NCBI RefSeq assembly: GCF_000337215.1
Contig: NZ_AOHZ01000035.1
Span: 1-37,385 of the forward strand
From: Natronolimnohabitans innermongolicus JCM 12255
Lineage (GTDB): Archaea; Halobacteriota; Halobacteria; Halobacteriales; Natrialbaceae
Length of the DNA stretch: 37,385 bases
Reading direction: 5' to 3'
The notes beneath the pieces are model-generated. The model was given only the letters and a program-made list of their open reading frames with translations. It was not told the DNA's origin and made no database searches. The first letter of the stretch is position 1. The number at the start of each line of letters is the position of its first letter. The translations under genes were made by a program, and so were the position numbers. This document shows, piece after piece, positions 17,556 to 36,450 of the stretch.

Positions 17556-18060
17556 TCGGACGGTAAGGATATAAACTTTTCTCTGATTTAGAGTTATCTT
17601 TCACTATCCGACTGTCTTCCGTAGTCCTTTACTGGAAATAGTGGGGTGGGGGTGTTCCGTCATTCTTATCCAGTGATTCCCTCTTCTGTCTAGCGATTCC
17701 TATTCTTCCATGGTATACTGGAAACGATGGCGTCTGTACTGTATATAAAAGATTGTTTACTGGAAATACTGGAACCCTGTGGTTTCTGTTCTGTAAGCAT
17801 CCAACTGGAAGCACCGAGAATTACTGGAAATAACGGGGTGAGTTTGATCACTTGTCGGTTGATGTCTTTACTGGAAATAGTGGGGTGTAGTGTCTCAAAG
17901 ATGCTTTCTTAATAACAACCAAATTGACTTTCTTCCAATAGACTGGAAACAATGGGGTCGATATCCAATAGTGGAAACCATGCTCCTCATGGTTATACTG
18001 GAAATAGCGGAAACAGTGGTCGAAACAGTTATGATTCTTGCCTGAATCAGTCGACACAAT

Positions 18061-19299
18061 ATGACTCCACGATTCCAGCCGGACGACACACTGTACAAAC
18101 GACGGAATACACTCAAAGTCGAGTATGTTCCAGACGACATCGTCGGACGGGATAACGAGATTGAGGAGTACGAAGCAGCCCTACAGCCGATCATCAACGG
18201 CGAGTACCCCGATAACATCTTCATTTACGGCAAGACCGGTGTCGGGAAGACTGCTGTGACAAATTTCTTGCTAAACGAACTCCAGGAATCTGCAAAACAT
18301 TTTGAAGTCGATCTCTCTGTCATCACGCTCAACTGCGATGGCCTCAGCACGAGCTATCAGGCCGCGATCAGTCTGGTGAACAATCTCCGAGAACCCGAAC
18401 ACCACATCGCCGAAACCGGTCATCCGCAATCCAAAGTCTACCGCCTTCTCTGGGATGAACTCAATAATCTCTCTGGGACTGTCATCATCGTTCTCGACGA
18501 GATCGACCACATCACGGATGATACGTTCCTCTACCAGATTACTCGCGCAGACAACAACGGATACATCGACAACATTCAGCTTGGCCTCATCGGGATTAGC
18601 AACGACTCGACGTTCCGAGAGCAGCTTGACGCGAAGGTTCAATCGTCTCTGTGTGAAACCGAGATCTCGTTTCCGCCGTATGGAACTAAAGAGCTCCAGA
18701 AAGTTCTCGAACAGCGAGCAGATATCGCGTTCCACCAAAGCGCACTCGAGGACGGAGTGATTCCGTTGTGTGCTGCCCTTGGTCGCCAGGATGGTGGAGA
18801 CGCCCGACGAGCGATTACGCTCCTTCGGAAGGCTGGCGATCTTGCACGCACCGAGAACGCGGATTCGGTTACGACTGATCATGTTGAACGCGCCCAGGAG
18901 AAACTTGAAGCACAACAGAGCATGGACATCATGCGCGACCTCACCGAACACGAGCAACTCACGCTCTACGCGCTGACTACGCTCGCTGCCGAGGACGCTA
19001 CCCCTGCCCGATCGCGGATCGTCTACCAGCGCTACAAAGAACTCTGTGAGTTCCAGGGTCGAGACCCACGTACGGCCCGCCGGATGCGCAGCTTCCTGTC
19101 CGACTTCGAGATTCTCAATCTAACGCTCTCGCACATAGAACACCGTGGTCAGGACGGCGGAACGTACCGCGAACATGAAATCAACCGGGACATCGCGACT
19201 GTCGTCGACGCGCTACAGACGATCATCAGCGAGATCGGTGCCCACCGGAGTATCATCGAGTACCTTCCCGACTCCGGTGAAGAATTTGCGGCGATGTAG
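18061..19299 (+). CDS. orc1/cdc6: Orc1/Cdc6 replication initiator
   Basis: The protein has 412 residues with a full AAA+ ATPase: Walker A GKTGVGKT (57-64), Walker B VLDEIDH (144-150), sensor 1 GISND (178-182) and sensor 2 GGDARRA (245-251). A C-terminal winged-helix DNA-binding domain covers about 300-412. Orc1/Cdc6 proteins bind ORBs and load the MCM helicase; the ORB array ends 40 nt upstream, so this initiator most likely acts on its own origin. The start at 18061 gives the usual short N terminus. A parS-like word pair (TGATTC at 18032-18037, GAATCA at 18044-18049) lies in its promoter, hinting at cross-control by the partition proteins. Haloarchaeal replicons often carry one such origin-specific initiator each. 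Confidence 0.95.
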   Translation: MTPRFQPDDTLYKRRNTLKVEYVPDDIVGRDNEIEEYEAALQPIINGEYPDNIFIYGKTGVGKTAVTNFLLNELQESAKHFEVDLSVITLNCDGLSTSYQAAISLVNNLREPEHHIAETGHPQSKVYRLLWDELNNLSGTVIIVLDEIDHITDDTFLYQITRADNNGYIDNIQLGLIGISNDSTFREQLDAKVQSSLCETEISFPPYGTKELQKVLEQRADIAFHQSALEDGVIPLCAALGRQDGGDARRAITLLRKAGDLARTENADSVTTDHVERAQEKLEAQQSMDIMRDLTEHEQLTLYALTTLAAEDATPARSRIVYQRYKELCEFQGRDPRTARRMRSFLSDFEILNLTLSHIEHRGQDGGTYREHEINRDIATVVDALQTIISEIGAHRSIIEYLPDSGEEFAAM

Positions 19300-19823: not shown

Positions 19824-19896
19824 ATCGAACACTGCGATTCGTAGGTACACAGGTGTTGCTAGCCGAGCCCAGAAATTAGTGAAAAGTCCCCTTGGG

Positions 19897-19904
19897 TTTA
19901 AATA
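19897..19904 (+). promoter_or_regulatory. TATA box of the TIR-domain gene
   Basis: TTTAAATA is centred about 26 nt before the GTG at 19927, the spacing expected for leaderless haloarchaeal transcripts. An upstream GTG at 19879 lies before the box and would be outside this transcript, which decides the start. Confidence 0.65.
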
Positions 19905-19926
19905 CTCAAATCACGACATATTTGTT

Positions 19927-20775
19927 GTGACGCCAAACGAAAACGACCACGTCACCCGCGTCCCGACAGTCGAGGTTCAAAGCCCCACTGGCTGCCTCGA
20001 TGTGAACTCTTTGGTGAATGGACGAGATGACACCGACCCGTTCTCTGCCCTGTTCAGCGATGGTAATAGCGACAGTGTCTTAGACGCCACTGAACCAACA
20101 TCTGTCCCGACCGGCAGCGACCAACCACCGAACCTTGTCGACCTCGGAAAGGACCTCCTTGTCGGGTATGCTGACTGGAAGGGCGGGCAAGTCGAACACG
20201 ACCCGCACGACGACCCACTTCGATACCTCTGGAACGACGCACCAGAATTGATCATTGCTGCCGCCGCCGCGGGCTATCTCTCATATAAGGGAGCGCAGGG
20301 ACTCGGTGGTCTGGTTTCAGCCGGCTCTACAACTGAAGACACCGATTCACCGGCCCGACCTCGGCTTCCCCTTGATGATCGACCATATCGGGTGTTCGTG
20401 AGTCATTCGTGGAAGTACTCTGATCAGCGCGAACGTATCGAGAAGTTCCTCGATGACGAAGAGCGACTCGACTGGCAGAATTTCAGCGTCCCAGAGGACG
20501 ACCCGCTGGAGTTCGAGGACACGAACGATCTTCGACAGCAGCTCTATCAGCAGGTTCGACAAGCGAACGTTGTCGTCGTTGTTGCTGGAATGTATGTCTC
20601 GCACAGTGAATGGATCGAGGAGGAAATTGAGATGGCGAAACACTTCGAAAAACCCATTATCGGAGTGCAGCCGAACGGGAACGAGCGACTACCCGTCTCG
20701 GTGAGGGACGCTGCGGACGAGATCGTTGGTTGGCGACAGCGGTCGATTGTGAACGCGATTGCGAAACATGGCTGA
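19927..20775 (+). CDS. TIR-domain protein with hydrophobic segment, probable defence effector or sensor
   Basis: Starting at the leaderless GTG at 19927, the product has 282 residues. Residues 1-105 are acidic and unrecognised. A hydrophobic, Ala/Gly-rich stretch (about 108-132, LIIAAAAAGYLSYKG) may insert in the membrane. From about 153 there is a TIR-like domain of the MTH538/DUF1863 (ThsB-like) kind: RVFVSHSWKYSDQRERI, a helix, then QANVVVVVAGMYVSHSEWIEEEIEMA, where Glu232/Glu233 are in the place of the catalytic Glu of NAD-cleaving or cyclic-ADP-ribose-making TIRs, and KPIIGVQP. The next gene overlaps by 8 nt, so the two make one unit. By analogy with Thoeris it may make a signal from NAD; that it is a defence gene is inferred. 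Confidence 0.82.
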   Translation: MTPNENDHVTRVPTVEVQSPTGCLDVNSLVNGRDDTDPFSALFSDGNSDSVLDATEPTSVPTGSDQPPNLVDLGKDLLVGYADWKGGQVEHDPHDDPLRYLWNDAPELIIAAAAAGYLSYKGAQGLGGLVSAGSTTEDTDSPARPRLPLDDRPYRVFVSHSWKYSDQRERIEKFLDDEERLDWQNFSVPEDDPLEFEDTNDLRQQLYQQVRQANVVVVVAGMYVSHSEWIEEEIEMAKHFEKPIIGVQPNGNERLPVSVRDAADEIVGWRQRSIVNAIAKHG

Positions 20776-21382
20776 GGAGGGCTCAACGGAGCTAGAGCCG
20801 TCGTCAGATTCAGATACGACCTCTAACGACTTCCCCAACCCCACGCGCGATGAGACGCTCATCGACCAGTACACACACTACGCCGGGAGTGCGATGGGCG
20901 TTTCTGACCGGAGACTTCGGACAAATCGGTTTTACGTCTCACTCCTCTCCGGAATTCTGGTCGTAATCACGTTTATCGCCCGGGAGCCTCTTTCGCTCGC
21001 TCAACAGATCGGGTTCGTGGCAGTGGGTCTGCTTGGCGTTTGTCTCTGCGGACTCTGGTATCAGACAGTGGACTCCCACCGTCGACTAAACCAGGCCAAA
21101 TATGAGATACTCCATGAGATGGAATCCAACCTCGCGTATCCAGTGTATCAACAGGAGTGGGAGCGTTTAGGCCCAACTGGAGCCACCGAGTCACATGATA
21201 CCCGGTTTCCTCGAATCACGATGCTTGGCGAGGTTCTTTGGGATATCGCTCGAAACACCGACGACGTCCAATATTACGAGCAAACGACAGTAGAGAAGAC
21301 GATTGCCGCACTATTGGCACACCTGTACGTTCTTCTCACATTGTACGCTAGCGGTTTGCTGGTGTATTCCATTGTCTGGTAG
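20768..21382 (+). CDS. Three-span membrane protein, RipA-like, partner of the TIR protein
   Basis: The ATG at 20768 lies inside the TIR gene (8-nt overlap), giving 204 residues; an in-frame ATG 9 nt earlier is possible. There are two close membrane spans (about 55-71, FYVSLLSGILVVITFIA, and 81-99, IGFVAVGLLGVCLCGLWYQ), then the charged helix SHRRLNQAKYEILHEME, then a third span at the C terminus (about 179-203). This layout recalls RipA-family octameric membrane proteins and, more loosely, SLATT-type 2TM effectors that accompany defence sensors. I infer that it forms a membrane complex or pore triggered by the TIR protein. The family name is a judgement from layout and the NQAKYEILHE-type helix, not a verified match. 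Confidence 0.78.
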   Translation: MAEEGSTELEPSSDSDTTSNDFPNPTRDETLIDQYTHYAGSAMGVSDRRLRTNRFYVSLLSGILVVITFIAREPLSLAQQIGFVAVGLLGVCLCGLWYQTVDSHRRLNQAKYEILHEMESNLAYPVYQQEWERLGPTGATESHDTRFPRITMLGEVLWDIARNTDDVQYYEQTTVEKTIAALLAHLYVLLTLYASGLLVYSIVW

Positions 21383-22100: not shown

Positions 22101-22122
22101 TGAATCACTGATTCACTGATCA
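22101..22122. repeat. Partition-type iterons at the end of the orphan adaptor gene
   Basis: TGAATCAC, TGATTCAC and TGATCA follow each other in 8-bp steps and span the stop codon of the adaptor copy at 22113. The same units occur at 27981-28002 and in the field at 29366-29757. Confidence 0.7.
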
Positions 22123-22373
22123 GCGTTTTGCTTTGCGAGCTCGCGAATTTTCTCCTTCGTCTCCTCTCGATACTCGCCAAAAGCCACCTCGAAGACACCT
22201 CGGTAGTAGTGTTTGTTCTTCTCCAGCGTGACGCCCTCGCGCTTTAGTTGCTTCTTCAGGCGAGTAAATGTGATCTCGATGTCCTCGCTCTGCTCTGGTT
22301 CCACGTATATCGTGACAGAATCCCAATCCTCGCGGATGTTCAGTGGTTCGTCGTCTGATTCTTCTGCTACCAT
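22113..22373 (-). CDS. Orphan copy of the ParA-associated adaptor (short form)
   Basis: The start at 22373 follows a strong AGGAGG ribosome-binding site about 6 nt upstream, giving 86 residues; a longer frame to 22424 was rejected. The product matches the C-terminal domain of the adaptor encoded at 27993-28445 at about 86 percent of positions (NIREDWDSVTIYVEPEQSE, then ITFTRLKKQLKRE and EVAFGEYREETKEKIREL). It lacks the acidic 65-residue N-terminal tail of that gene and has no ParA beside it. Base differences are mostly silent, so both copies seem to be under selection for protein. It probably binds the same iterons, and might compete with or replace the long form. Together with 27993 it brackets a 5.6-kb block holding the GHKL gene. 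Confidence 0.8.
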   Translation of the reverse strand: MVAEESDDEPLNIREDWDSVTIYVEPEQSEDIEITFTRLKKQLKREGVTLEKNKHYYRGVFEVAFGEYREETKEKIRELAKQNADQ

Positions 22374-22833: not shown

Positions 22834-25800
22834 TCAGCCTTTGAATGTCGATGATTGGTCGTCCGAACGTCGATTGATACGGAGGACAATGCCGTCGTGT
22901 GTGAACCCCTCGACGTCGAGTTCGTCGAGAAGTGCTGGGAGCTCGTCGAGGTGACCGTTCAGATCTATGGCTGACTCGTCCGGGAGCACCCCGACGAGTC
23001 GCCAGTCGCCCCGATACCGCCACGCCTCTTCGGGATCGGATTGTAGGCACACACGGCGATAGACTGAGATCTGGTTCGCACTGAGATGGACGTTGCTCAC
23101 GGGGCCACCGGAGAGCGCCTTCGCCTCATATCTGACTGGTCGGAACCCGCTGTCGTCGTGTGCGAGCCCAACGAGATCGAATCCAGCGCCATCCCAGACA
23201 CGAGAGATGTGCAAGCCCTGGGCCAGTGCTGAGTCATCGTCGGTCGCTCGCCATTCGTTCCATGCCTCACGGACCGACGATCGGGTGGCTCCTTTGGGGA
23301 ACGGTGAGAGGAGGGCCTCTCGGGCCGCCTCGAAGGACTTTGGGCTATCGGCGTGTTCTAATGCGGAGAGGGTTTCGTCACGGACGCAGTGCAGCAGCGC
23401 CACTTCTGCTTCGTCACCGACTATCTTCTGAGCCTTGTGCTTCCGCGCCATCTCTTGTCGGTCGAACGTCCCGTTATCGTTCGGGTGACTCTCCAGACCC
23501 TCTGGCCCATCTCGAGTCCATCCTGCATCGCTCGCGTCTTCGATCTTCGAGATTGATTTGTAGCGTGGCGAGAAACGCCGAATTTCGTCGCTCAGGACCT
23601 CCGGATCGGGAATCTTCGAGGCTGGAATCGAAGCGGTGTAATCCGCGTTGGATAGCCAGCGGACGACAGCCCGAGATTGGTCGAACGTGAGTCGATGGAC
23701 GGCGGAGTCGATGAACTCTTCGAGGGACTGCTTGACGGTCTCTTCGTCTGCATCCTCCACCCCGTTCGACGAGACGAGATTGACCAGATACGACACCAGC
23801 CGTGGTTGTTGATCGTCGAACCAGCGCTGCCACCGGAGGCGATGCTCGTGGGAGCATGAGAATCGGGGCCTGAACCGATCTTGTTCCTCGGTGAGGTCGA
23901 GCTCCTTGAACCGTTGGTTGATTTCCACGTCGCACACATCGTCGGAGCACTCGCCCATCCCGATATCCGATGGTCCGAGCGAGGACAGCTGGGTGGGAGA
24001 TTCGATAGAGGGGTCGAGTGTGAGATCGAACTCCCCCAGCACATCTCTGGTCGCATCGAACAGATTTCGTTTTGCGGCCTCGTCCAGTGGGTAGAGCAGC
24101 TGGGCGTACTGGCTCACGAGAGGTCCAGCATCTTTCCGATCGACGAATCGGTCGAGACGGTCGACACCATCATGGTCGTACTCAGTCAGGGCCCGCTCGA
24201 AGAGGATACCGACCTGGCGTTGATCTTCGAATAGGAGGTCCGCGAGGGCCTCACCGAACGGTGTCAGGTCGTGTGATGGTTCGCCCAGAGCACCATCGAA
24301 CACGATGGTGGGGGCGTCTGTGTCCACGAAGAACGCATAGCTGTCCTCGCCTCTGTATCGTTCCTCGGAGTCGAGCTCCCGTCTGTCCGCGGAGAGAGTG
24401 TACTCCACCCATGCGTCTTCGACCTGCTGGAACCGACTATTGTGCCATCTGTCGATGATGTCGTCGTCTATATCGAGACGTCTGACGGCCTCGCTCAACG
24501 CCAAGAGACGTGGGAGCAATCGCTCAATCGCTTCTTGTTTCTCGGTGGCCCTATCGTCGGTATCCCCGTCGGTTTCGTCAAATCGGACCTGACGGTTGAC
24601 GGTGAGGAGGCGGGATTGCAACGGCGACGAGTCGTTGACGGACTGGCTCGGTAGTACCGCGGTGACGAGGGGGACTGAGTGGAAGATCCGACGCATCTGA
24701 TCGCGGTCGTCGGAGTTCGTGATGATGTAGGCGGGCTCGCCAGAGAGTTGTCGCCATTCAAGGGGACGTTCGTGCAGACCTGTGGACGTCTCTGCGGGAT
24801 GATACGTCAACAACGGTGGGGGATCGGTCCTTGATTCAGCCGAATCGTTGGAGACGATGGCCTGGAGGACTCGCTCGTACAGCCCAATGAGTGCATCACG
24901 AGCGGAGGAGTCGACCTCGACACTGGTCAAGTCGAGGTTTTGGAGACGGTCGGCGAGTCTGCGTGCGGGGGCCGCATCATGCTTCTCGAGGGTTCCCTCG
25001 GATATTCCATCGAGCGCACCGAGCGTCGTCAGGATCTCTTTGTACTCCGACCCCTGGTCGACACTCCACAGGACGCGCTTTCGCCCGTACGAGCGCGTCG
25101 GGAGCACGACCACATCGCGGGGAGCGACCCCGGCAGGGGCATCAGAGAGGTATCGTGGAGGTTCCGCGTGTCCGGTCGGGTCCTCCGTCGATTCGGAGTC
25201 GCTCTGGACGGGGAACCATGGCCGTTTGGCGAGCGGTGGGACCAGATTCGTCGACGCCCTCGACGAATCTTCCTCATCTCTTCGTTCGGCGATCTCCTGC
25301 TCGATGAGGTCAGACAACCAGACGTCCCAGGCGTCTGCGATCGAGACCAACCACGCATCGGACGGGCGGTCATCGTCGAACGACCCGTCCGAGAGCTGTG
25401 GCACCGTCGGGGCGCTGGGCCGTGTCTCCGCGGGGACGATGGCCGGTGGGATGGCTCGCGCATCGACGATGGCGTCTTGTCCACCTTCGATGAGGGTCAG
25501 TGGGATGCCTCCCTCGGGAGGTTCCGGCCCACAACCTAGGAACAGCAGGAATGATTCGACATCGAGAGATGGCGGGAAGTCTCCGAGTCTGTCGGTGTCG
25601 ACCTGGTCGATGGTGAGTTGACGGGCGGGCGCCCATAGTGTACCATCGACGGGTAAATGGAGTGTCGCAATCGATCGGCCCGCCCGCTGCTCGGTACCGC
25701 TTGAGTCTCCGGATAGGAATCGCCACCCCATCTCGTATCCGTCGCTCTCTCCGAACGGGTCGGTCTGGTAACGTTCGTAGAGGAACAGCTCCGCCGCGTA

Positions 25801-27756
25801 TCCGATCAGTTCGCGTTGGAGGGTCGCTGCTCGGTCGGCATCCTCCGCCAATGGCTGGTGATTGAAACGGGCAGGGGAGTTCCGAAGCTGACGGATCTCG
25901 GAGAGCAACTGCACAGGATTGAACGACCGTTCTCCGAGCGACGAGCTATCGCCGCCGACGAACAACGAGGGGAACTCGAATGTCGTCACGGAACAACCTG
26001 ATTCTCGCAAACTGGTGGGGAGGGGAAGCGGACGGTCGTCTTCGTCGTCCCTGACGAACAGCACCCGATCGCTCTTCTCGGTCTCCCAGACCTCACGGCC
26101 CGATTGGGTCGTCGGGAGCGGGACCCGAACCGATTCTTCACCCTCGCTCTCGACCGGGATGATCGGTGTCTCTCGATCGCGGAGTGCGTCGCACAGGGCA
26201 TCGGCGTACTTTCCCAGCGTCACCGTCCCGCAGCCCTTTCCGCAGTGATGGTCCAACCACGCCCTAGACACCCGCCAGAATCGATCGCATTCGCCGGTCT
26301 GGACGCTGTCCTGGTTCTGGAAGTACCGGTCGGCCAGCTCCGCCCAGAGCTCGTATGACTCCCGGGCCTTCATATCGTCGCCGAAGAGGAGTGCTGCGAG
26401 GTGCTCTTCGATTCTCCGAGCAGGGATTCCGCTTGCCCCAGGGTCGAGGAGTGACCAGAAGTCGCGGCGGATGGTATCGTTATCTTGTCCCTCGACGCGC
26501 TCGACATCTTCGGGGTCGATTCTCGTCCACTCGACGGTACTCAGTGGGGCCCCAACCTCCTCGAGGAGTTCGAGGAGATGGAGCTCGGCTCCAGCCTCGA
26601 GGAGCGCTTGGTTGTACCGACCGACGCTATCGTCCTCGACGGTCAGTCCTTTGCGATCTGGCTGCAGGAGGAAATCGCCATTGAAATCGACTCCGAACGG
26701 TGCATCCAGTTCCGTCGGGAGGTAGCCGTAGAGCTGCCCCTCGACATCTCTAGCATCTGACCCAGGCCAGCTGATTGCAGCACCGGGGTTCGAGAGGTCG
26801 TAGTCGGCTTCTGCAGCTTCCTCTGCGAGCGATGTCGACGAGTGACGCTCCGATCTCCAGTACGCCATCGACCGCCCGGAATCCTCGCTCCACGTTCCGT
26901 CGGTCGGCCAGGTTCGACGCTCGAAACAGCGGTCCGACGTCTCGGCTCTCACGCTCAGTCCGCGGCTGTGTTCGAGCAGCCCGGCGAAGTGGAGGTGGCT
27001 CTCGTTAAGGTTCTCCATCATCTTCGAGACCTCGTCCATCCGCTTCGTGGGAATCGGGACTACGACGGCGGTGGTGACCTCTCCGTCGGGTATCGGTGAC
27101 GGTCGTCCCTCGCTCATCAGCGGGAGCGGGAAGTGATAGCTCGGGCGTGTACCGATGTCCGAGTAGGTGGGATCAGTCGTCTCGAGGAACCTCTTGTGAC
27201 CCCGCCGTACGTCGGGGTAGTCGAGGCGCTCGTTCCAAATCTCGTCGTCCAAGTGCGAGTGGAGTTCCATCCCCCACCAGCCATCCTCGTGTCGACTCCA
27301 GACACGAACCCAGTCGTTCAACCAGAAGACTGACCGGAAACCGACTCCCTTGTTCCCGACGCTCTCGTCGGGTGATTTGTTCGACAGGTGGACCGAGCAG
27401 AGTGCATTGAAGTCCGGTCGGTGGGCCTCTTCCGGCGGGTCACGGTAATTAAACTCGGGGTCGACTGAGATGGGAAGTCCGTCGTTCGTGACGACAAGTG
27501 CGTAGGAGCTGGCCGAGGTCGGCGTCTCAACGACGTTGACGGTGATTTCTGCATCCGCTCTGTCGAGTGCATTCTGGAGCAGTTCGAAGACGACACGGCC
27601 AGCGTGTGCACGACGGACGCCCTGTTCGTCGCCACGTTGCTGTAGCGCCGTCTCTCCACGTTGTCTCTCATAATAACAATGATGCTTCTTGAAGATGGTC
27701 TTGAGAGCACTCGGTGCGGGGTAGGTTTCATCCCGTTCGGACACGTCCACGCTCAT
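22834..27756 (-). CDS. Sacsin-type GHKL ATPase fused to a NO VEIN/DUF3883 nuclease-like domain
   Basis: This is a 1640-residue protein. Residues 50-145 have an HSP90/sacsin-type GHKL fold: N box with Glu58 and Asn62 (VFELLQNALD), NDG at 91-93 and the glycine-rich lid ESVGNKGVGFRSV (131-143). A long middle region without recognised domains follows, with no membrane span. The C terminus (about 1440-1600) matches NOV_C/DUF3883: a GDEAEVALL helix, Asp1527 in GFDLVGL, Glu1544-Ala-Lys1546 (RYEAKAL), and a Ser/Asn/Gln helix, i.e. PD-(D/E)XK residues in order. The plant protein NO VEIN shares both ends, and relatives occur in prokaryotic defence islands. I infer an ATP-driven sensor that triggers DNA cleavage. 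It stands alone, flanked by partition-adaptor copies. Confidence 0.85.
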   Translation of the reverse strand: MSVDVSERDETYPAPSALKTIFKKHHCYYERQRGETALQQRGDEQGVRRAHAGRVVFELLQNALDRADAEITVNVVETPTSASSYALVVTNDGLPISVDPEFNYRDPPEEAHRPDFNALCSVHLSNKSPDESVGNKGVGFRSVFWLNDWVRVWSRHEDGWWGMELHSHLDDEIWNERLDYPDVRRGHKRFLETTDPTYSDIGTRPSYHFPLPLMSEGRPSPIPDGEVTTAVVVPIPTKRMDEVSKMMENLNESHLHFAGLLEHSRGLSVRAETSDRCFERRTWPTDGTWSEDSGRSMAYWRSERHSSTSLAEEAAEADYDLSNPGAAISWPGSDARDVEGQLYGYLPTELDAPFGVDFNGDFLLQPDRKGLTVEDDSVGRYNQALLEAGAELHLLELLEEVGAPLSTVEWTRIDPEDVERVEGQDNDTIRRDFWSLLDPGASGIPARRIEEHLAALLFGDDMKARESYELWAELADRYFQNQDSVQTGECDRFWRVSRAWLDHHCGKGCGTVTLGKYADALCDALRDRETPIIPVESEGEESVRVPLPTTQSGREVWETEKSDRVLFVRDDEDDRPLPLPTSLRESGCSVTTFEFPSLFVGGDSSSLGERSFNPVQLLSEIRQLRNSPARFNHQPLAEDADRAATLQRELIGYAAELFLYERYQTDPFGESDGYEMGWRFLSGDSSGTEQRAGRSIATLHLPVDGTLWAPARQLTIDQVDTDRLGDFPPSLDVESFLLFLGCGPEPPEGGIPLTLIEGGQDAIVDARAIPPAIVPAETRPSAPTVPQLSDGSFDDDRPSDAWLVSIADAWDVWLSDLIEQEIAERRDEEDSSRASTNLVPPLAKRPWFPVQSDSESTEDPTGHAEPPRYLSDAPAGVAPRDVVVLPTRSYGRKRVLWSVDQGSEYKEILTTLGALDGISEGTLEKHDAAPARRLADRLQNLDLTSVEVDSSARDALIGLYERVLQAIVSNDSAESRTDPPPLLTYHPAETSTGLHERPLEWRQLSGEPAYIITNSDDRDQMRRIFHSVPLVTAVLPSQSVNDSSPLQSRLLTVNRQVRFDETDGDTDDRATEKQEAIERLLPRLLALSEAVRRLDIDDDIIDRWHNSRFQQVEDAWVEYTLSADRRELDSEERYRGEDSYAFFVDTDAPTIVFDGALGEPSHDLTPFGEALADLLFEDQRQVGILFERALTEYDHDGVDRLDRFVDRKDAGPLVSQYAQLLYPLDEAAKRNLFDATRDVLGEFDLTLDPSIESPTQLSSLGPSDIGMGECSDDVCDVEINQRFKELDLTEEQDRFRPRFSCSHEHRLRWQRWFDDQQPRLVSYLVNLVSSNGVEDADEETVKQSLEEFIDSAVHRLTFDQSRAVVRWLSNADYTASIPASKIPDPEVLSDEIRRFSPRYKSISKIEDASDAGWTRDGPEGLESHPNDNGTFDRQEMARKHKAQKIVGDEAEVALLHCVRDETLSALEHADSPKSFEAAREALLSPFPKGATRSSVREAWNEWRATDDDSALAQGLHISRVWDGAGFDLVGLAHDDSGFRPVRYEAKALSGGPVSNVHLSANQISVYRRVCLQSDPEEAWRYRGDWRLVGVLPDESAIDLNGHLDELPALLDELDVEGFTHDGIVLRINRRSDDQSSTFKG

Positions 27757-27980: not shown

Positions 27981-28002
27981 AGAATCACTGATTCACTGAT
28001 CG
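27981..28002. repeat. Partition-type iterons at the end of the long adaptor gene
   Basis: The 8-bp units (A)GAATCAC, TGATTCAC and TGATC span the stop codon of the adaptor at 27993, just as at 22101-22122. Both adaptor genes thus carry a cognate-looking site within their last codons. Confidence 0.7.
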
Positions 28003-28445
28003 ACGTCTTCCTTAGCCAATTCGCGAATCTTCTCTTTCGTCTCTTCCCGGTGCTCGCCAAACGCTACCTCGAAAATTCCATGGTAAAAGTGCTTGTTCTT
28101 CTCAAGCGTGGCGTTCTCCCGTTTCAGCTGCTTTTTCAGCCGCGTGAATGTGACCTCAATATCTTCACTCTGTTCCGGTTCGACGTATATCGTGGCCGAA
28201 TCCCAATCCTCCCGGATGTTCAACGGTTCATCGTCTGTTTTCTCTGCCTTCTTACTCGAGGATTCAGTATCCGCTGTGCCAGTAGCCCCCTGCTGCCCTG
28301 ATTGCTCCTCAGTATCAGCCGCAGGTTCGTGGTCTTGACTCTCTGCTTCCGACATCGTTTCCATCGTCTCGTCATCGGTCGCGGCTTCCTCGTCGTCTGC
28401 TTCCTCAGACGGATCCTCAAATCGCTCGTCCATTCCCCGGGGCAT
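27993..28445 (-). CDS. ParA-associated adaptor protein (probable centromere-binding, ParB-role)
   Basis: The start at 28445 follows the ParA stop after 2 nt (TAA, GA, ATG), so the genes are co-translated; the upstream extension of the frame lies inside parA and is spurious. The 150-residue product has a disordered acidic N-terminal tail (about 1-68; Asp/Glu/Ser/Ala-rich, with MSEAESQDHEPAADTEEQSG-like composition) and a compact C-terminal domain (about 72-150; WDSATIYVEPEQSEDIEV, LKKQLKREN, VAFGEHREETKEKIREL). It is not a canonical ParB: no HTH of that family or CTPase motif. By position it is the centromere adaptor of this locus. Acidic tails of such adaptors commonly stimulate the ParA ATPase, which is inferred here. 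Confidence 0.82.
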   Translation of the reverse strand: MPRGMDERFEDPSEEADDEEAATDDETMETMSEAESQDHEPAADTEEQSGQQGATGTADTESSSKKAEKTDDEPLNIREDWDSATIYVEPEQSEDIEVTFTRLKKQLKRENATLEKNKHFYHGIFEVAFGEHREETKEKIRELAKEDVDQ

Positions 28446-28447
28446 TC

Positions 28448-29359
28448 TTACGCCTCCACCTGCGTTTTGTCGAACGCTCGTTCCATCGTCTCCGCAACCT
28501 CCAGAAAGAGGTCGCGCTCTACTTGCTGATCGTTCGCGTCTTCCCACCCAAAAATATCTCGTCCATTGTCCCACGCACGCTGGATCGCTACTCGCATCGG
28601 GAGTTTGAAAATCGGTGCCATTGACGCGAAGGATTCGTCGAAGGAGTTGAGGAATTTCTGTGACTGACCGTCGTCCCGGTACATATTCGCCAGGAGTCCG
28701 ACGATTGCGATCTCGATCTGCTGGTTGTCCTCGATGGACTCCAGCTGGTCCCACAGGTCGTCAAGTGCATCCCGTGATGTTGCTTGGGTCTGTGCAGCCA
28801 GGAAGACGTTTTGAGCCGCGATGAAGGCCGCGTCCGTCAGGACTGAGAGGTCGGGAGGGCAATCGACTACGATAAAATCGTAGTTGTATCCGTCGTCAAC
28901 CATCTCTTCGAGGGCGAGTTTCAGTGAGAGGCGGGCATTCGCATCGTCCATCCAATCTCGAGCAAGGCCCATGTCCTTGTGACTAGGAATCAGATCGAAG
29001 TTCAGATGGTCGTACTCGTCGGCTTCGATCACGATCTCTGAAAGACTTGTATCGTGCGTGCGCGGATTGTCGACGAGTACGTCGAGCAGATTCTCGTCAT
29101 CGGTGACTAGTGTGTTGGGGAGTTCGTTCTTCGGGCTTGCTGGATCGTTGTCGTCGCCCGGACCTAGTCCAAGCCCTTTCGTCATGTCGGCTTGCGGGTC
29201 CATATCGATTGCAAGAACATCGTGGTCGCGCGTGGCCAACGCCGCGGCACTGTTAATCGTCGCTGTTGTCTTTCCAGTCCCGCCTTTCTGGTTACCGAAG
29301 GCGATCGTAGGGATGCCAGTCGATGGGGTGACGCACCATCCACGAGGTGTCTCGGTCAT
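28448..29359 (-). CDS. parA: ParA/Soj-family partition ATPase
   Basis: The protein has 303 residues with the deviant Walker A KGGTGKTT (25-32), the A' motif AIDMDPQADMTKGLG, and a Walker B-like FIVVDCPPDLSVLT. A poorly conserved middle insertion (GPGDDNDPASPKN) follows switch I. ParA binds DNA non-specifically with ATP and moves or segregates plasmid copies with the help of a centromere-bound partner, here the adaptor directly downstream. A TATA-like TTTATGA about 28 nt before the ATG lies inside iteron units (29366-29385), so the partition complex probably represses its own promoter. The ATG at 29359 is the only start that leaves the full N terminus. Confidence 0.93.
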   Translation of the reverse strand: MTETPRGWCVTPSTGIPTIAFGNQKGGTGKTTATINSAAALATRDHDVLAIDMDPQADMTKGLGLGPGDDNDPASPKNELPNTLVTDDENLLDVLVDNPRTHDTSLSEIVIEADEYDHLNFDLIPSHKDMGLARDWMDDANARLSLKLALEEMVDDGYNYDFIVVDCPPDLSVLTDAAFIAAQNVFLAAQTQATSRDALDDLWDQLESIEDNQQIEIAIVGLLANMYRDDGQSQKFLNSFDESFASMAPIFKLPMRVAIQRAWDNGRDIFGWEDANDQQVERDLFLEVAETMERAFDKTQVEA

Positions 29360-29365: not shown

Positions 29366-29757
29366 ATCATTGAATCAATGACTCATAAATCCATGTCAGA
29401 CACTCAGTTGTATCTCTCTCAATGTGATTCTGCCGAATATCGTCGTTTGATGGGCTAAGGTGGCGAATTCGTCTCTTTTCGGGCACTGTCTTTGAATCAT
29501 TGATTCACTGACTCAATGATTCTTGAAATCAGTACTTCACTGATTCATTGATCCAATAACTTCGTGATGCGAGTCTCGTGTTCCTAAGTCCTCAATTCAA
29601 TACTTCATGCACTCACTAATTCAGTGACTCAATGAATCTATGAGTCAGCGACTCCTCACTCTCTATGACGCTAAGCAACTCAATGAATCATGGGCTCTTT
29701 GATTCCCAACTTCCGGTATCCAATACTTCATGAAATCAGTGACTCAGTGATTCATTG
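29366..29757. repeat. Iteron field, probable centromere (parS) of the partition locus
   Basis: Units of the palindromic heptamer TGANTCA occur in 8-bp steps. Clusters lie at 29366-29385 (in the parA promoter), about 29494-29522 (four units in a row), about 29537-29552, about 29617-29656 (five units, some changed), about 29678-29690 and about 29736-29757. Words such as TACTTCA link the clusters. The 8-bp step is less than one helical turn, so neighbouring sites face round the helix, which suits a spiralling adaptor complex. No gene lies in 29360-29814. The units at the ends of both adaptor genes and a half-pair before orc1 are outlying members of the same set. Confidence 0.8.
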
Positions 29758-29814
29758 AGTTAGTTATTAACCGAAGAAAGACAACTGGAATGACTTGACA
29801 GATGGCGATTGATG

Positions 29815-31122
29815 TTACGTTCTCTCTCCGAAGGCTGCGCTAAGTTGGTCTCGCATGAACTCTCGTCGGACTCGACGAGAACGCGAGTCAGACAGGTAAT
29901 TTTGCATCACCACCAGAGGATCGCTACTACCCTGCTCTGCAGCGATTTCGTCGACACCTTCGAGAACGCCTTCGAGGACTGCTGTATAGGTATCGTACCA
30001 GAATCGACGACAGAGCTGTGGACTTGGTCGTTCACCCCTAATCCGCTTGGGGAGATCTGCTTCCAATGCAAGATTTTGGAACCAATTCCGGATTGTATCG
30101 CGGGTCACGTACGGCGTTTCTCCTTGTGAGGAGGGGAACAGGTATCCAGTCCACGTATCGTCTTCCGCTAGCTCATCGATTCGGGAGTCGAGCACGTCCA
30201 TTCCGTACAATAGAGACACTTCGCCGGGCCCGTTCTTGCGGTTCTCGAACGTGATGAAGGGGACGTCGTCTTCGTGAACGTCACGCTGGAACTGCGAGAT
30301 ATGGAGTGCTGCGACCTCACTTGCTCGAAGTCCCCAGCCAGCTAATGCTACCACGAGCAGCTCTTCTCGCGTCGTCCCCGATGCCTGCATCAGTTTCCGA
30401 ATATGATTCGCTGAAAGCGAAGGAGTCAGGGAATCTTCGACTTCCCACTTGAATTCGTCGTAGAGGCCGCTGGCAGGATTCATCGAGGCGACCCGCCGCC
30501 CGACCAGATGCTGATACCACGCGTCGACGACGCGCCGCACACGCTGTAGAGTCTGTGCACTGTATTCCCGTTCTGCTCCCTCATTCAACCAATCAAATGC
30601 TGCATAGACCGCGTCAACGGCTTCGTAGGCTGGATTCTCTCGGCCCCGTTGAATCGGTGTGAGGAGGTCGTCCGTCCCGTTCGCCTCCTGGTAGGCACGT
30701 ACGTAGAGGTTCAGTCGCGTTCGCAGCGCGTCGACAGAAGACGACGCCAGACTGTACCGTGATTTTCGCCGGTTGAGGAACTGTTCGAGGGCGTCGATTG
30801 TTGCATCATTCGATGTTGCCCATGTGTAGCCTTCTTCATTGTCTCCGAGTTCGAGAACCTCGTTCCAGAACTCTCCAAACGAGCGGTCGTGATGGCGACG
30901 GAGTGCGGCGAGGAACGCCCGCGCATCGTGATCTCGAAACCACTGGTGGGTTGGTTTCTCGCTCGTTGGATCGATACCCTCTGTTTCGAGGCAGGGGGCG
31001 ATCTCGTCCCAGTACAGGTCCGTGAAGTCCTCGAGCGAATACGAGGTCCATCGGACTCCCTCGAATGATGGCACACGCTCAGCGTCGGTCTCGCTCTCAT
31101 GTTCGGCGTCCGATCGATTCAT
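29815..31122 (-). CDS. Tyrosine recombinase/phage-integrase-like protein with altered active site
   Basis: The ATG at 31122 gives 435 residues; the frame is open 16 codons further but that part is Ser/Gln-rich. The N-terminal half (about 90-215) resembles a SAM-like core-binding domain, and the catalytic domain covers about 232-420. Visible active-site places are Arg266 (GWGLRASEV), Lys296 (FENRKNG), then Gln369-x2-Arg372 (PSPQLCRR) where His-x2-Arg is usual, and Tyr409 in NYLSDS as the candidate nucleophile. The Gln in place of His could be tolerated or may mark loss of full cleavage. Its place next to the iteron field fits plasmid multimer resolution or element integration. No tRNA att site is visible. 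Confidence 0.8.
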   Translation of the reverse strand: MNRSDAEHESETDAERVPSFEGVRWTSYSLEDFTDLYWDEIAPCLETEGIDPTSEKPTHQWFRDHDARAFLAALRRHHDRSFGEFWNEVLELGDNEEGYTWATSNDATIDALEQFLNRRKSRYSLASSSVDALRTRLNLYVRAYQEANGTDDLLTPIQRGRENPAYEAVDAVYAAFDWLNEGAEREYSAQTLQRVRRVVDAWYQHLVGRRVASMNPASGLYDEFKWEVEDSLTPSLSANHIRKLMQASGTTREELLVVALAGWGLRASEVAALHISQFQRDVHEDDVPFITFENRKNGPGEVSLLYGMDVLDSRIDELAEDDTWTGYLFPSSQGETPYVTRDTIRNWFQNLALEADLPKRIRGERPSPQLCRRFWYDTYTAVLEGVLEGVDEIAAEQGSSDPLVVMQNYLSDSRSRRVRREFMRDQLSAAFGERT

Positions 31123-31265
31123 TGTAGCGGTCTCTGGGGAACTCGACTGTCTGAAACTGGATTGGTGCAAAACCTCGATAGAAGCTTAGTCGCGGCCCAG
31201 TATGGCGATTCTAAGAGTGGCATATTCGAGTTGTTCAGCGTTTTAGTCGGATTCGTTATTAGTTT

Positions 31266-31452: not shown

Positions 31453-34400
31453 TCAGTTTTTGTTTATACGTGAAAGCAGGTTTTCAGTCCTGTCTTTGGC
31501 CTCATCTCGAGAGATACCTTCGTCGACGTAACGCTCGATGACACGAGCACGAATCTGGCCCTGATCCAGCGTCTCACGAAGTTCGATGTACTCGTTCTCT
31601 TCAAGATACGTCTCCAGCTCGTTCGCCTTACTGCTATAGAACCCGCTTATTTCGTTGTGCAAGGCCTCAACGATCTGCCTGCCATCGCCATTGACTGACT
31701 CAGCAAGTTTACTAACCTCGTCGATGAAGTTACTGCTTACGGCGCCAGAGGCTTCGAGAACCTCTCGATCAACGGGCTCGCCACGACCAACCTTCCAGGC
31801 GTCGACGAACTCGTTCAGCGCCGCGGCATTCTCTTCTACTACCGTTACCTGTTCGGAATCAACTGAGGAGAGGTCTCCGTTGCCCCACTGCAGCAGGTTA
31901 TTCAGCTGACCCCAGTGCTCGATCCCGAGCTCCAAGAGTTGATGAAGGGTTTCGACATCGTCGACTACGTACCACAGGTGCGCCGTCCCGACGCCACGGT
32001 GCGGATTGAACGAATCCACCTTGAGTTCGTCTCCATACGAGGAATGGTCGTGACCGTCGGGACTGGGGGACTTCGGAGTGAACGACTCGATAGAGTCCAG
32101 ATCGGGGATATGAACGGAGTCGTCGACATCGCGAACCGTTGCAAGGTCGATGATTTCGTGGTTGACGCTGTTCGTACTCTCTAGTGCAGCAGTCCACTTC
32201 GCCACTTCATCGCCCTGTGCGGTGAAATAGAAGACCTGCCGACCGTTCCGGGCGAGTTCGATCGTCGACTCGATGATCGTCTTCGCCCTGCGGTCGTCGG
32301 TGTTGGCAAGCGTCTCGTCGAGGAGGAGTGGAATCTGAACGCCCTGTTCCTGCTGTTCCACGAAGGCGATTCGAACGGCGAGTAAGACCTGCACCCGAGT
32401 ACCGCTCGAAAGCTCGTCGAGCGCGAGTCCCTTCTGTTTGGATTCGTCGAACGCACGGAACTCGGCTTCGGCCTCATCGAAGTCCAACCGATACCGGCCG
32501 CGAGTGATCGTCGTCAGGATTTCACGAGCACGCTCGAAGACGTCCGGGCGACTAGTCTCCATCGTCGCCTCCTGAACGTGATCCACCAGCACGTCGCCGA
32601 CCATCGCAGCACAGTCGTCCTCGAGTTGGTCTTTCAGATCATCGAGCGCCCGATCACGCTCCGCAAGCGCCGTTTCAACTTGGTCGTCGGACTTTGCCTG
32701 CCTGATTTCTGCCTTGATATCGGCAATCCGTGACTGCAGGTCGTCGAAATCCTCAGCAGTTCGTTCCGCCTCACGGAGGTCTTCTCTGAGGTCAGCAATC
32801 TCTTGCTTCTTGAGGTCCGGTTCGAAGCCCGGGTAGCTTTCGAGTTCTTCGGCTTCCGTGTTCGCCCGGATGTTGGCCTCTCGTACGTCCTCCGCAGCCG
32901 ATTCGTATGCTTCGACCTGCTCACAGAGTTCCTCCAACCTCTCGTGGTCATCGGAGTCGAGATCCAGAGCCGCAAAGATTTCGTCGCGTTCGTCCGCCAA
33001 CGCACCTATCTTCTCGGTCGCTTCCTGAATCGTCTCGGTAGCTTGGTCGAGGTCCCGCTGTGCGGCTTCGCGCTGCTGTTCGCGGTTCTCGAGGTTTCGG
33101 ATTGCCTCGGTCGCCTCACCAGACCTCTCGACATCGTCATAGCTGTAGGGATCGAGTTTCGCTTGGAGTTCTTCGCGGGCGGTCTCGATCTGGTCGTCGA
33201 CGGTTTCGATGCTCTCTTGAATCCCCTCAACCTCGTCGTGGGCTTCCTGCCAGTCAAGCACTCGCTTGGAGATCACAGCGAGTTCGACATCAGACGCATC
33301 TGGCGCGGCGCCCAACTGGTCTTGGAGTTTGGCACGCGTTTCCTCCAGATCCTGCTCTTTCTGTTCGAGCGTGTCTGAATCCGTGGCCAGGCTATCGCGC
33401 CATTCGGACCGTCGCTCGGCCAGTTTGTGCGCTGCGATTGCGTCGTACAGTCCGATCAGACGAGACCGAACCTCGTCTTCGGTCCACCCCGCCGGCGGGT
33501 TCAGACCGGTTTTCTCGAACGACTTGCGATGCGGTTCCCGTGAATCCCCTCCGTCTTTGGACTGTGAGCGAGCGCGCAGCCCATACCAGAAGATACCAGC
33601 GCCGACGAGCAGGATGGAGAACAGCAGTGGATGCACCAACAGACCCAGCGCGATGCCCGTCGAGGCGAGAGAAACGGCCGAGAACACAGCGATTCGGAAT
33701 GCCTCTGAACCGTCGTTCGACTCCGTAGAAACGGACGCAGCCAGCCATTCCTCCAGCGACTGACTCGCGCGTTGGAGCGTGGGTAAATCGGGCTCAGGGT
33801 GCTCACCGTCCTCCAGTAGTCGTTGGACGGCCTCCCGGGTTTCACGCTCGGACTGGAGTTCCTCGGCCTCTCGTGCGAACTTCGAGACGGTCTTCCACGT
33901 GACGGGTTCCAAGTCAACGAGGTCCCCGGTATCGACATCTAGGGGAATGTCATCTCGGGCAGTTTCTCGCTGCCGTTGGGCGTCAGCTAAGTCGCCCTGG
34001 AGATCGCGCTTCCTGTCCTCCGCAGAATCAAGGTCATCGCGAAGCTCTTTCAGATGGTCGATACGGCCTGTCGGGAGCCCCTCTTCAGGAAGGTCGGCCT
34101 CATCAAGCCGTTCTTGAGCGTCCGTTTTCGTTTCCTCGGCCTCGTCTTTTTTGTCGGTCCACTCGTCGATGTTATCTTCGAGGGATCGAACACGCTCGAT
34201 TTCGTCTCCGTCGACCTGGTCTAAGATATCGGGGAACTCGTCAAGCCTCGATTCAGCCTGCTCTAGCTGGTTTCTCGCCTGTGCGTAGTCGATCGCCTGC
34301 TCGAGCAGTTCGGATCGCTCTTGTGCTTGACGCGCTGCCTCCAGTTCACCACGTAACCGGGAGAGTTCGTTCTGCTCTTGGCGTAGTTCGGAAACGTCGT

Positions 34401-34926
34401 TCTGCGCCTCACGTAACTCCTGAATCGCTCCCTTGGCGTTCTGGACGACATTCCTGTTGGCCCGACTCGGGGAATCCGAATACCTGAGCTCGTCGTATGC
34501 TGCAGAGAGATCGTAGCCACCAGCTGATTCTCGCTCGATTATCTCGGCGAACGATTCGTTGTTGTTGTCTCGCTGGAGTAGGTCGTGGAGGGAGAGACGG
34601 TAGCGGTCGCGTTGATCGGCTGGAGGAAGGCTCGGACCGTTCGCCTCTTGGCCGTCACGTTGGTAACTCGTGCGGCCATTGTCGACTTCGACTCGCCAGT
34701 CTTCACCGTTCAGTGAGAGCTGCCCCACGAGGGATGCACGCTCATCGGCGGTCTCGGGCCAGCAAAGCCATTCGAGCGACTCAGCGAGCGTCGTCTTTCC
34801 TGCCGCGTTCGGTCCATGAACGACATTGATGCCGGAGCACAGGTCGTCGACAGAGAAGCCACCAGTTTCGAACCCAGGAGCTTGGACGATCTGGATTTCC
34901 TCGAAGCAGATCGGGTCCCTGGTCAT
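31453..34926 (-). CDS. YhaN/SbcC-like ATPase with membrane hairpin and extra C-terminal domain
   Basis: The protein has 1157 residues and an ABC/SMC-type ATPase split by coiled coils: Walker A GPNAAGKTT (38-46), coiled coils (about 165-400 and 500-770), ABC signature LSSGT (839-843) and Walker B IPLLLDE with D loop (865-876). Between the coils, where SbcC/Rad50 has a zinc hook, there is no Cys-x2-Cys; instead residues 410-450 form a hydrophobic hairpin (two spans), as in YhaN. Residues about 920-1157 are an added domain (with AHLWYVVDDVETLHQLLELG) that I do not recognise. Its ATG overlaps the phosphoesterase stop (34923-34926), so the two subunits are made together. A membrane-held nuclease motor is inferred. 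Confidence 0.88.
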   Translation of the reverse strand: MTRDPICFEEIQIVQAPGFETGGFSVDDLCSGINVVHGPNAAGKTTLAESLEWLCWPETADERASLVGQLSLNGEDWRVEVDNGRTSYQRDGQEANGPSLPPADQRDRYRLSLHDLLQRDNNNESFAEIIERESAGGYDLSAAYDELRYSDSPSRANRNVVQNAKGAIQELREAQNDVSELRQEQNELSRLRGELEAARQAQERSELLEQAIDYAQARNQLEQAESRLDEFPDILDQVDGDEIERVRSLEDNIDEWTDKKDEAEETKTDAQERLDEADLPEEGLPTGRIDHLKELRDDLDSAEDRKRDLQGDLADAQRQRETARDDIPLDVDTGDLVDLEPVTWKTVSKFAREAEELQSERETREAVQRLLEDGEHPEPDLPTLQRASQSLEEWLAASVSTESNDGSEAFRIAVFSAVSLASTGIALGLLVHPLLFSILLVGAGIFWYGLRARSQSKDGGDSREPHRKSFEKTGLNPPAGWTEDEVRSRLIGLYDAIAAHKLAERRSEWRDSLATDSDTLEQKEQDLEETRAKLQDQLGAAPDASDVELAVISKRVLDWQEAHDEVEGIQESIETVDDQIETAREELQAKLDPYSYDDVERSGEATEAIRNLENREQQREAAQRDLDQATETIQEATEKIGALADERDEIFAALDLDSDDHERLEELCEQVEAYESAAEDVREANIRANTEAEELESYPGFEPDLKKQEIADLREDLREAERTAEDFDDLQSRIADIKAEIRQAKSDDQVETALAERDRALDDLKDQLEDDCAAMVGDVLVDHVQEATMETSRPDVFERAREILTTITRGRYRLDFDEAEAEFRAFDESKQKGLALDELSSGTRVQVLLAVRIAFVEQQEQGVQIPLLLDETLANTDDRRAKTIIESTIELARNGRQVFYFTAQGDEVAKWTAALESTNSVNHEIIDLATVRDVDDSVHIPDLDSIESFTPKSPSPDGHDHSSYGDELKVDSFNPHRGVGTAHLWYVVDDVETLHQLLELGIEHWGQLNNLLQWGNGDLSSVDSEQVTVVEENAAALNEFVDAWKVGRGEPVDREVLEASGAVSSNFIDEVSKLAESVNGDGRQIVEALHNEISGFYSSKANELETYLEENEYIELRETLDQGQIRARVIERYVDEGISRDEAKDRTENLLSRINKN

Positions 34927-36227
34927 GCGTTACCTCCCTTTTGGCTGAGTAGGGTATCAAGCAGTACCCGTGCCTGCTGTTCGAGATGTTCGATAGCGTC
35001 AGTGCCGTCCGGATCCCCGAGTTCGGTTTCGCGTCGGAGTGGATTGTACGCATTCGCACTATGAGCCTGCCGCACCGCTGCTAACGAGTCATCGACCACG
35101 TTGCCGTAGGATTCGCGAGTATCACCGTTCTCGATTTCGAGCAGGAGGTTAGCGAGGTACGCAGCTGCATTGTCTCCTTCTGCAAGGTCTTCAAGATCGA
35201 TTGCCGGACGAGTGTCGACGTCAATCGATTCGATTCGGACTGAAACCGATCCCTCCCGGAATCCGAGGTCACGCTCCATCGACCGATGCTGATCGACGAG
35301 CGTCGAGTGGGCATCCGTCCGACCGGTAAGATGAACCCGAACTAGACTGAGTTCCAACGATCTCGTGTCGAGTTCGGATCGAACGTGTTCCTTGATTTCC
35401 TCTGAAATTACGGAGGTTGCTTCTTGCGGGTCGTCTACCTCGGACACGTCGACCGAAACCTGGTCGTAGCGAACGGATGCTAGAGGGATCTGTTCAGCAC
35501 GTACCTCTCCGTTTTTGGGTATCGTAATCGTCCACGGGCCGTGGGCCTGCTGTTCACCCGGATCGAGCGGTTGTGGCGATCCAGAGTACAAAGCCAGTGG
35601 ACGCGAGTCGATCTGGATCCCCGGACTGTGAATATGACCGAGAAGCCAGGCATCTGCTGGGGTATCGCGGAGCTCGCTGGACAGAACCGGTGCGTATCGG
35701 CTTCCTCGTGAGTCGAGGTCGGCGTGAAGCACTCCGATCTGAGGCGCGTCATCGGTCTCCGGAAGCTCGTACTCCTCGAGCGGAGACTCGTAGACGTGTT
35801 CGGCCGAAAACGACCAGCCATCGAAATGGGCTACCGGCTCGCCGTCCTGTTCGAGCGTCCAGCGTTCCCACTGACCCTCTCTCCCGAGGAATTGGAGCGT
35901 GTCGGAATCGAGGTTATCAACCATATCAGGGAGGGCATCGAAGTCGTGATTCCCGGCAACCACGACGACTGGGATCCCTGCTTCGTCGAGTTGGGCAATT
36001 CCGTCTTCGAACGCTCCGTACGCCTCGAAATAGCGATTCTCCTGATCAACAATATCACCTGCAATCACGACCGCGTCAACATCCCGGTCGATTGCCTCTT
36101 GGACCGTCGACAGCCAGACGGCTTTCGGTGACAGCTCGGGACCATCCAGATCATCCGGGATCCGACTCGGGTGACGGCCGAGGTGAAGATCTCCCGTGTA
36201 AAGTAGTTCCAGAGCGTCCTCCATCAT
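34923..36227 (-). CDS. YhaO/SbcD/Mre11-like metallophosphoesterase
   Basis: With the ATG at 36227 (36224 is an equal alternative) the protein has 434 residues. The calcineurin-like motifs are in order: GDLHLG with Asp13 and His15, then AGDIVDQ, GNHDFD, LHADLD and GHIHSPG. These bind two metals in Mre11/SbcD nucleases. The C-terminal half (about 260-434) is a helical capping and partner-binding region. The YhaN-like ATPase overlaps its end by 4 nt. A TATA-like TTTATTTG (about 36266-36273) flanked by a TGACA/TGTCA dyad (36262-36280) lies before the start, so the pair probably has its own regulated promoter although a helicase gene is upstream. Likely a DNA end-processing nuclease, in repair or defence. 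Confidence 0.9.
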   Translation of the reverse strand: MMEDALELLYTGDLHLGRHPSRIPDDLDGPELSPKAVWLSTVQEAIDRDVDAVVIAGDIVDQENRYFEAYGAFEDGIAQLDEAGIPVVVVAGNHDFDALPDMVDNLDSDTLQFLGREGQWERWTLEQDGEPVAHFDGWSFSAEHVYESPLEEYELPETDDAPQIGVLHADLDSRGSRYAPVLSSELRDTPADAWLLGHIHSPGIQIDSRPLALYSGSPQPLDPGEQQAHGPWTITIPKNGEVRAEQIPLASVRYDQVSVDVSEVDDPQEATSVISEEIKEHVRSELDTRSLELSLVRVHLTGRTDAHSTLVDQHRSMERDLGFREGSVSVRIESIDVDTRPAIDLEDLAEGDNAAAYLANLLLEIENGDTRESYGNVVDDSLAAVRQAHSANAYNPLRRETELGDPDGTDAIEHLEQQARVLLDTLLSQKGGNA

Positions 36228-36450
36228 TGCGACTAACCAGTGAGCTAGAAGCACATATCACTGACAAATAAACTCTGTCAATTCGTATCGAAATGCCATG
36301 AAAAAGAAGTCCTACCCCGTCGACAACTGATGGTCTATCAACATTCTGACGGTCTACATTTTATCGAATATTTCAGTGTGTGGTGGTGATTTGCACCCTA
36401 ATGACGAAGTCACCGAAGATACTGATTCTCAACGAGGTTCTGAGATATTC

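Follow-up and report, generated by a model that had tools for sequence, protein, structure and literature searches.

A candidate centromere of 8-bp-step TGANTCA iterons beside a ParA/adaptor gene pair on a Natrialbaceae plasmid

The DNA that we analysed, a stretch of 37,385 nucleotides hereafter called the window, belongs to a 93.5-kb contig of Natronolimnohabitans innermongolicus JCM 12255. It carries on the minus strand a parA gene (28448-29359) encoding a ParA-family ATPase of 303 amino acids. This protein has a deviant Walker A motif, KGGTGKTT, near residue 24, its matches to AAA_31 and CbiA begin at residues 18-19, and an N-terminal HTH extension is absent. Only 2 bp separate the parA stop codon from a second minus-strand gene (27993-28445), which encodes a protein of 150 amino acids that we call the adaptor and propose as the array-binding protein. 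It is made of an N-terminus reading MDERF, an acidic linker and a C-terminal domain of about 80 amino acids with the predicted order beta-alpha-alpha. A shorter adaptor of 86 amino acids is encoded at 22113-22373 (minus strand); it corresponds to the C-terminal domain only, without the N-terminal motif, the linker or a parA gene of its own, and is 83-86% identical to the long one over this domain. These are the only two adaptor copies in the whole genome and both lie on the window's contig. Since its tail is absent, the short adaptor could occupy sites without activating ParA, and it might act as a partition decoy or modulator. A Natronosalvus amylolyticus plasmid (L001:7224-7463) likewise has a second adaptor that lacks the tail and is accompanied by its own array units.

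Several other genes of the window deserve mention. The gene directly downstream of the adaptor (22834-27756) encodes a protein of 1640 amino acids whose N-terminal ATP-binding domain is of the sacsin type, and a similarly large gene is present downstream in loci L001 and L002. A possible anti-phage defence pair (19879-21382) consists of a TIR-domain protein resembling ThsB and, after it, a membrane protein of the 8xMP family. At 10474-14747, an AAA_5 ATPase of 954 amino acids and the 470-aa protein that comes after it resemble, by architecture only, an McrBC-type restriction pair. A large coiled-coil ATPase of SMC/Rad50-like appearance is followed by a gene whose sequence looks like that of a probable SbcD/Mre11-type nuclease (31453-36254).

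A non-coding field (29366-29763, no strand assigned) separates parA from an adjoining gene for a tyrosine recombinase (29815-31170, minus strand). It contains about 20 TGANTCA-like units in 8-bp register, and we propose it as both centromere and parA operator. A preliminary description of this DNA had reported TGANTCA clusters at 8-bp steps over about 400 bp, and these proved to be real. Indeed, the self-identity of the field is 0.445 at lag 8 and about 0.2-0.25 at most other lags, with further peaks at lags 16, 24 and 32 and a weaker one at lag 4, the latter because the unit is itself palindromic. Eighteen heptamers with at most one mismatch to TGANTCA are present at 29371-29762, and 11 exact ones at 29371-29754. 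They do not form one continuous array: the field consists of four or five clusters, each with the 8-bp register inside and with phase shifts between them. Counting single heptamers over the whole window gives a weak enrichment (22 TGANTCA versus 13.5 expected), so that tandem and local statistics are needed. Here the tandem form settles the matter: two tandem exact units, TGANTCANTGANTCA, were found five times in the genome (4,588,634 bp), always inside the window: at 29371, 29493, 29501 and 29740 in the field and at 22101, by the end of the second adaptor gene. With this sequence reversed as a control, the genome gave no match. The longest run in the field is of 4 units when one mismatch per unit is allowed. 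With two mismatches it is of 9 units, compared with at most 3 in shuffled upstream regions.

The units closest to parA form a pair, TGAATCAATGACTCA (29371-29385), at positions -26 and -18 from the parA ATG. Directly before this pair sits a conserved box, TGTCTGACATGGATTTAT in the window (29385-29402, minus strand) and written TGTCTGACRTRGATTTAT across loci. The TATA box of a leaderless haloarchaeal transcript is expected at this position and, since it directly adjoins the pair, a protein bound there should block initiation at parA. Other units accompany the adaptor genes, AGAATCA/TGATTCA/TGATCGA at 27981-28003 for the long adaptor and TGAATCA/TGATTCA/TGATCAG at 22101-22123 for the short one (no strand assigned to either set). 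In both genes the TGA stop codon is itself a half-site of a unit (27989-27995 and 22109-22115). Units had previously been placed inside the ends of both adaptor genes; they are present at both, but they run across the stop codons, with most of their extent downstream.

PLSDB contains 27 haloarchaeal plasmids that encode the adaptor, which is also found in 35 loci of named genome contigs. The 35 distinct upstream regions contain on average 9.6 exact TGANTCA, versus 0.2 after shuffling. One or both of the units at -26 and -18 are kept in nearly all of these loci; further clusters occur around -140 to -200, -260 to -300 and -380 to -410, and the interval from -40 to -120 is a near-empty gap. The spacing between units follows multiples of 8 bp, with 359 pairs of units at a distance of 8, 238 at 16 and 181 at 24. 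When 11 related fields were aligned, column identity was 0.88 in the half-sites (somewhat inflated, the column classes being assigned from unit matches), 0.74 at the central base, 0.69 in the spacer and 0.77 outside the units.

We also searched 391 haloarchaeal genomes, an 8-bp array being scored as (TGANTCAN)3 with at most one mismatch. A close adaptor was found in 53 genomes, an array in 51 and both in 49 (Fisher p = 5e-55, which overstates independence since the species are related). The absence of arrays beside other homologues had been named beforehand as a refuting outcome. Arrays do occur there: one was detected in 49 of the 53 genomes with the adaptor, as against 2 of the 338 without it, and in three of the misses (G212, G270 and G289) it was seen upstream of parA at slightly lower stringency. 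In the remaining miss, G291, the adaptor is present and no parA was found beside it. As for the two arrays without an adaptor, G014 keeps the promoter, the field and the first parA codons, after which the sequence is unrelated, and the field of G317 is truncated; both are decayed par loci. In addition, an unannotated fragment of a window-type adaptor domain lies beside a foreign ParA/adaptor pair of the B' type (described below) in H. salinarum pKBTZ02_38 (L007, 6001-6252), with one TGAATCA shortly after it (6282). Two MAG contigs labelled Spirochaetaceae and Thermoplasmata (L064 and L067) carry haloarchaeal-type adaptor/par genes that are 89-90% identical to the window's adaptor domain; they are probably misbinned.

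As the most conserved units are those that separate the TATA-like box from the parA start, the repeats might serve as a transcriptional operator only, through which the adaptor autoregulates the parA operon, the centromere being elsewhere or nonexistent. RHH-type partition proteins are indeed also autorepressors (PMC9499535). However, about 20 units over 400 bp, found 300-400 bp upstream of the promoter and as far as the adaptor stop codon, exceed the need of one promoter, and the genome has no other tandem array of the TGANTCA unit that could serve as the site. We therefore consider a purely regulatory role rather unlikely, even if it is the most serious competitor of a combined operator and centromere.

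More distant adaptors, with a C-domain identity of about 30%, are encoded after ParAs that are also about 30% identical. In the main group of these, group B, the same place upstream of parA is occupied by 11-21 copies of AACGA, versus about one expected, at 9-bp steps. Pooling 20 group-B loci gave 309 AACGA and a single TGANTCA, and pooling 37 group-A loci, of the window's kind, gave 336 TGANTCA and 14 AACGA. The same separation was observed between genomes, where a 9-bp array was scored from at least 4 matches on one strand. Genomes with only A adaptors have the 8-bp array in 34 of 38 cases and the 9-bp array in 3 of 38, whereas those with only B adaptors have them in 0 of 59 and 50 of 59, respectively. 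The 9-bp matches without a B adaptor that were inspected (G000, G085, G271, G278 and G318) are mostly low-complexity repeats of near-identical units, unlike par arrays. A further group, B', comprises plasmids and the viruses phiH1, phiCh1 and ChaoS9. Its parA genes are preceded by the promoter box of group A with a different operator behind it, and a 9-bp signal is present. For the adaptors of group C, whose ParAs are 34-40% identical, an upstream 9-bp signal was detected in some loci (z up to 5.9), with no consistent unit. Loci L121-L126 of this group hold more distant ParA/adaptor pairs, some of them on contigs longer than 2.5 Mb, and show no recognisable common iteron.

Because the type of array follows the type of adaptor, the adaptor is the best candidate for its binder. 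Co-occurrence alone cannot divide the adaptor from ParA as the reader of the repeats, since the par genes travel together; at nearly all loci ParA and the adaptor cannot be separated genetically, and they diverge in parallel, as would also be expected if ParA itself recognised the repeats. Type Ia ParAs bind their operators via an N-terminal HTH region. The ParA described here has no such region, its Walker A motif starting from about residue 24, and the short adaptor has its own array units without its own parA. Recognition by a host factor would leave unexplained why the repeat sequence and its step differ between adaptor/ParA subfamilies that occur in one and the same group of hosts. Recognition by ParA or by a host factor, instead of by the adaptor, is thus improbable.

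Two other functions were considered for the field and rejected, since ORB-like repeats lie elsewhere and arrays persist without a recombinase. Replication iterons, or a part of the plasmid origin, could be suspected from short tandem repeats on a plasmid, and orc1 is near in some relatives. We find this very improbable: direct and inverted copies of TTTACTGGAAAyAGTGGGGTG, resembling origin-recognition boxes (ORB), are present at 17208-18019, just upstream of the window's orc1 gene (18061-19299), so the replication origin is probably there and separate from the field. Moreover, any orc1 homologue is within reach at only 17 of 40 loci, and the array goes with the par genes. That the field is the recombination site of the adjoining enzyme (a weak match to the XerC/XerD-like group) is hardly credible despite the proximity of its gene, given that any recombinase match occurs at only 24 of 40 loci, several of these matches being short fragments, that eight loci with more than 3.8 kb of upstream sequence (L006, L049, L059, L062, L066, L068, L069 and L077) have no recombinase and keep the array, and that the units per field are far more numerous than a pair of core sites.

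We also examined how the 9-bp repeats relate to the coding sequence. The linkers of B and B' adaptors are rich in E-T-x triplets coded by GAA-ACG-nnn, which is the 9-bp unit; as 9 bp equal three codons, the unit stays in frame. Such in-frame iterons, read as an (E-T-x)n linker, occur in L097-L119, L127-L130 and L007 (groups B and B'), and in B' the repeat also codes for the start of ParA (MTETAETAET). In group B, the ratio of GAA to the other Glu codon is 87:10 before Thr and 106:187 for the other Glu of the same genes (p = 2e-21), and in group B' it is 62:6 and 35:80 (p = 1e-16); both p values rest on related, non-independent sequences. This strong preference for GAA before ACG points to selection acting on DNA and not on amino acids alone, and the B/B' centromere may double as coding sequence. 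In the subfamily of the window, the step is 8 bp and the array is outside the coding sequence save for its ends at the stop codons, which would fit the constraint of the reading frame.

The adaptors of groups A, B' and C, and that of L106, share an N-terminal (I/L/M)xxR(F/W/L) motif, an acidic linker of variable length and the C-domain, the latter with the pattern W-NxRTIYLPDD, a long helix, LxKNRxFYP and a second helix. In the main group B, GIEGNY replaces the Arg motif. No useful match to the window's adaptor was found in Pfam, NCBIfam or PHROGs; its sister adaptors match PHROGs 26668 and 29165, of unassigned function. Scans of viral contigs for adaptor relatives returned B' relatives only. 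In line with the earlier proposal that the adaptor is not a known ParB, no ParB match to it was found in Pfam, NCBIfam or PDB sequences. A search of PDB sequences with two adaptor profiles (A1 and A4) gave nothing convincing, and hhalign gave no match to a small hand-made RHH set (ParG, CopG and omega; a weak test). AlphaFold modelled the C-domain of the window's adaptor with low confidence (pLDDT 61). For the B' relative L137 (pLDDT 81), the model contains strands at 8-12 and 18-22 and helices at 23-44 and 54-64, an order compatible with a ribbon-helix-helix protein plus an extra strand; this model had no convincing match in PDB or BFVD (Foldseek, VIA-align). As the strands of RHH proteins intertwine within a dimer, the model of a monomer says little about this fold. 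Among the possible folds, RHH seems the likeliest. A bolder proposal takes the adaptors for a new archaeal centromere-binding family, possibly with a fold of its own, in which iteron spacing shifts between 8 and 9 bp during evolution. In the 9-bp subfamilies, under this proposal, the centromere would be spread in frame through the adaptor coding sequence, the disordered (E-T-x)n linker being at once protein linker and cis-acting array. This is possible though on balance doubtful.

Taken as a whole, the sequence data make it quite probable that the field is the cis-acting site, operator and centromere combined, of a two-gene, type-Ib-like ParA/adaptor partition system on a Natrialbaceae plasmid. 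In the mechanism that we propose, each TGANTCA heptamer, with its two TGA half-sites, would be bound by an adaptor dimer, and dimers placed next to one another at every 8 bp would build up a nucleoprotein array. Adaptor bound to the pair at -26 and -18, behind the TATA-like box, would repress the parA-adaptor operon. The larger upstream clusters, helped by the small number of units at the stop codons of the adaptor genes, would load enough adaptor for its many N-terminal (I/L/M)xxRF tails to contact ParA-ATP and trigger hydrolysis. The plasmid would then follow ParA over the nucleoid. We infer that the field is most likely the docking site, that is, the centromere, through which daughter cells would inherit the plasmid.

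The location of plasmid and chromosome centromeres in archaea was named as an outstanding question in a 2016 review (PMC5120986). Our literature search, which covered few subscription papers, found no published haloarchaeal plasmid centromere; a prior description may exist. The present work offers a specific, testable DNA element and its candidate binder in more than 50 of 391 sampled species, and a sister system in about 70. These systems are also present in classical elements such as a Haloarcula marismortui plasmid and the viruses phiH1 and phiCh1. The natural pairs with swapped repeat type provide a ready test of specificity, and the module could stabilise haloarchaeal vectors.

We also compared this locus with known partition systems. 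The ParA loci of the haloviruses phiH1, phiCh1 and ChaoS9 (PMC6471424) are related, as their records match the B' adaptor C-domain and, in ChaoS9, an uncharacterised gene next to parA (ChaoS9_255) spans this match; they differ by belonging to another subfamily, with GAAACG repeats at 9-bp steps and not TGANTCA. The type Ia and chromosomal ParABS systems rely on a ParB with ParB-N CTPase and HTH domains; the adaptor has 150 amino acids and no Pfam or NCBIfam match to ParB. The AspA-ParB-ParA system of pNOB8 is also an archaeal plasmid partition system with a dedicated site-binding protein coating DNA (PMC5120986). However, it comprises three genes, a wHTH AspA and one 23-bp palindrome, whereas here, in the window as in L002-L006, parA and one small gene are followed by unrelated genes, with no ParB.

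SegAB of Sulfolobales is closer in some respects: it likewise associates an archaeal ParA-type ATPase with a small DNA binder, the RHH protein SegB, and its sites lie just upstream of segA (PMC12284271, PMC5120986). Like TGA-N-TCA, the core of the SegB site, AGA-S-TCT, is a palindromic heptamer of the form 3-1-3. SegAB differs in being chromosomal and in having single scattered 13-bp palindromes of another sequence, TCTAGA-S-TCTAGA (PMC12284271), where the consensus described here is TGANTCA in tandem at 8-bp steps. With profiles A1 and A4, no SegB chain was found in PDB at E up to 10.

The best resemblance is with the type Ib delta/omega system of plasmid pSM19035, which has an RHH ParB and a heptad parS (PMC9499535). 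In both cases the ParA has a deviant Walker A motif and no N-terminal HTH, and its partner is small, omega with a flexible N-terminus and the adaptor with an N-terminal Arg motif and a disordered linker. The sites of pSM19035 are tandem 7-bp repeats, 7-10 per site, which overlap promoters including that of parA and are present several times per plasmid (PMC9499535); likewise, short tandem repeats lie here upstream of the operon, over its promoter, and at more than one place. Full activation of the pSM19035 ParA takes at least four contiguous heptads (PMC9499535), a number reached by the runs of 4 and 9 units in the window. Unlike in pSM19035, the heptamers are palindromic and spaced at 8 bp, or at 9 bp in the sister subfamily, the adaptor is encoded directly after parA and has an acidic linker, the array straddles the adaptor stop codon, and no match of the adaptor to omega could be detected, either in sequence or in fold. 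The preliminary description had suggested a distinct partition class; the gene order, the small Arg-motif binder, its disordered linker and the short tandem repeats over the parA promoter speak instead for a likeness to bacterial type Ib (PMC9499535). Unless the fold of its adaptor proves to be new, it would be more apt to regard this system as a haloarchaeal variant of the type Ib kind that has so far gone unrecognised.
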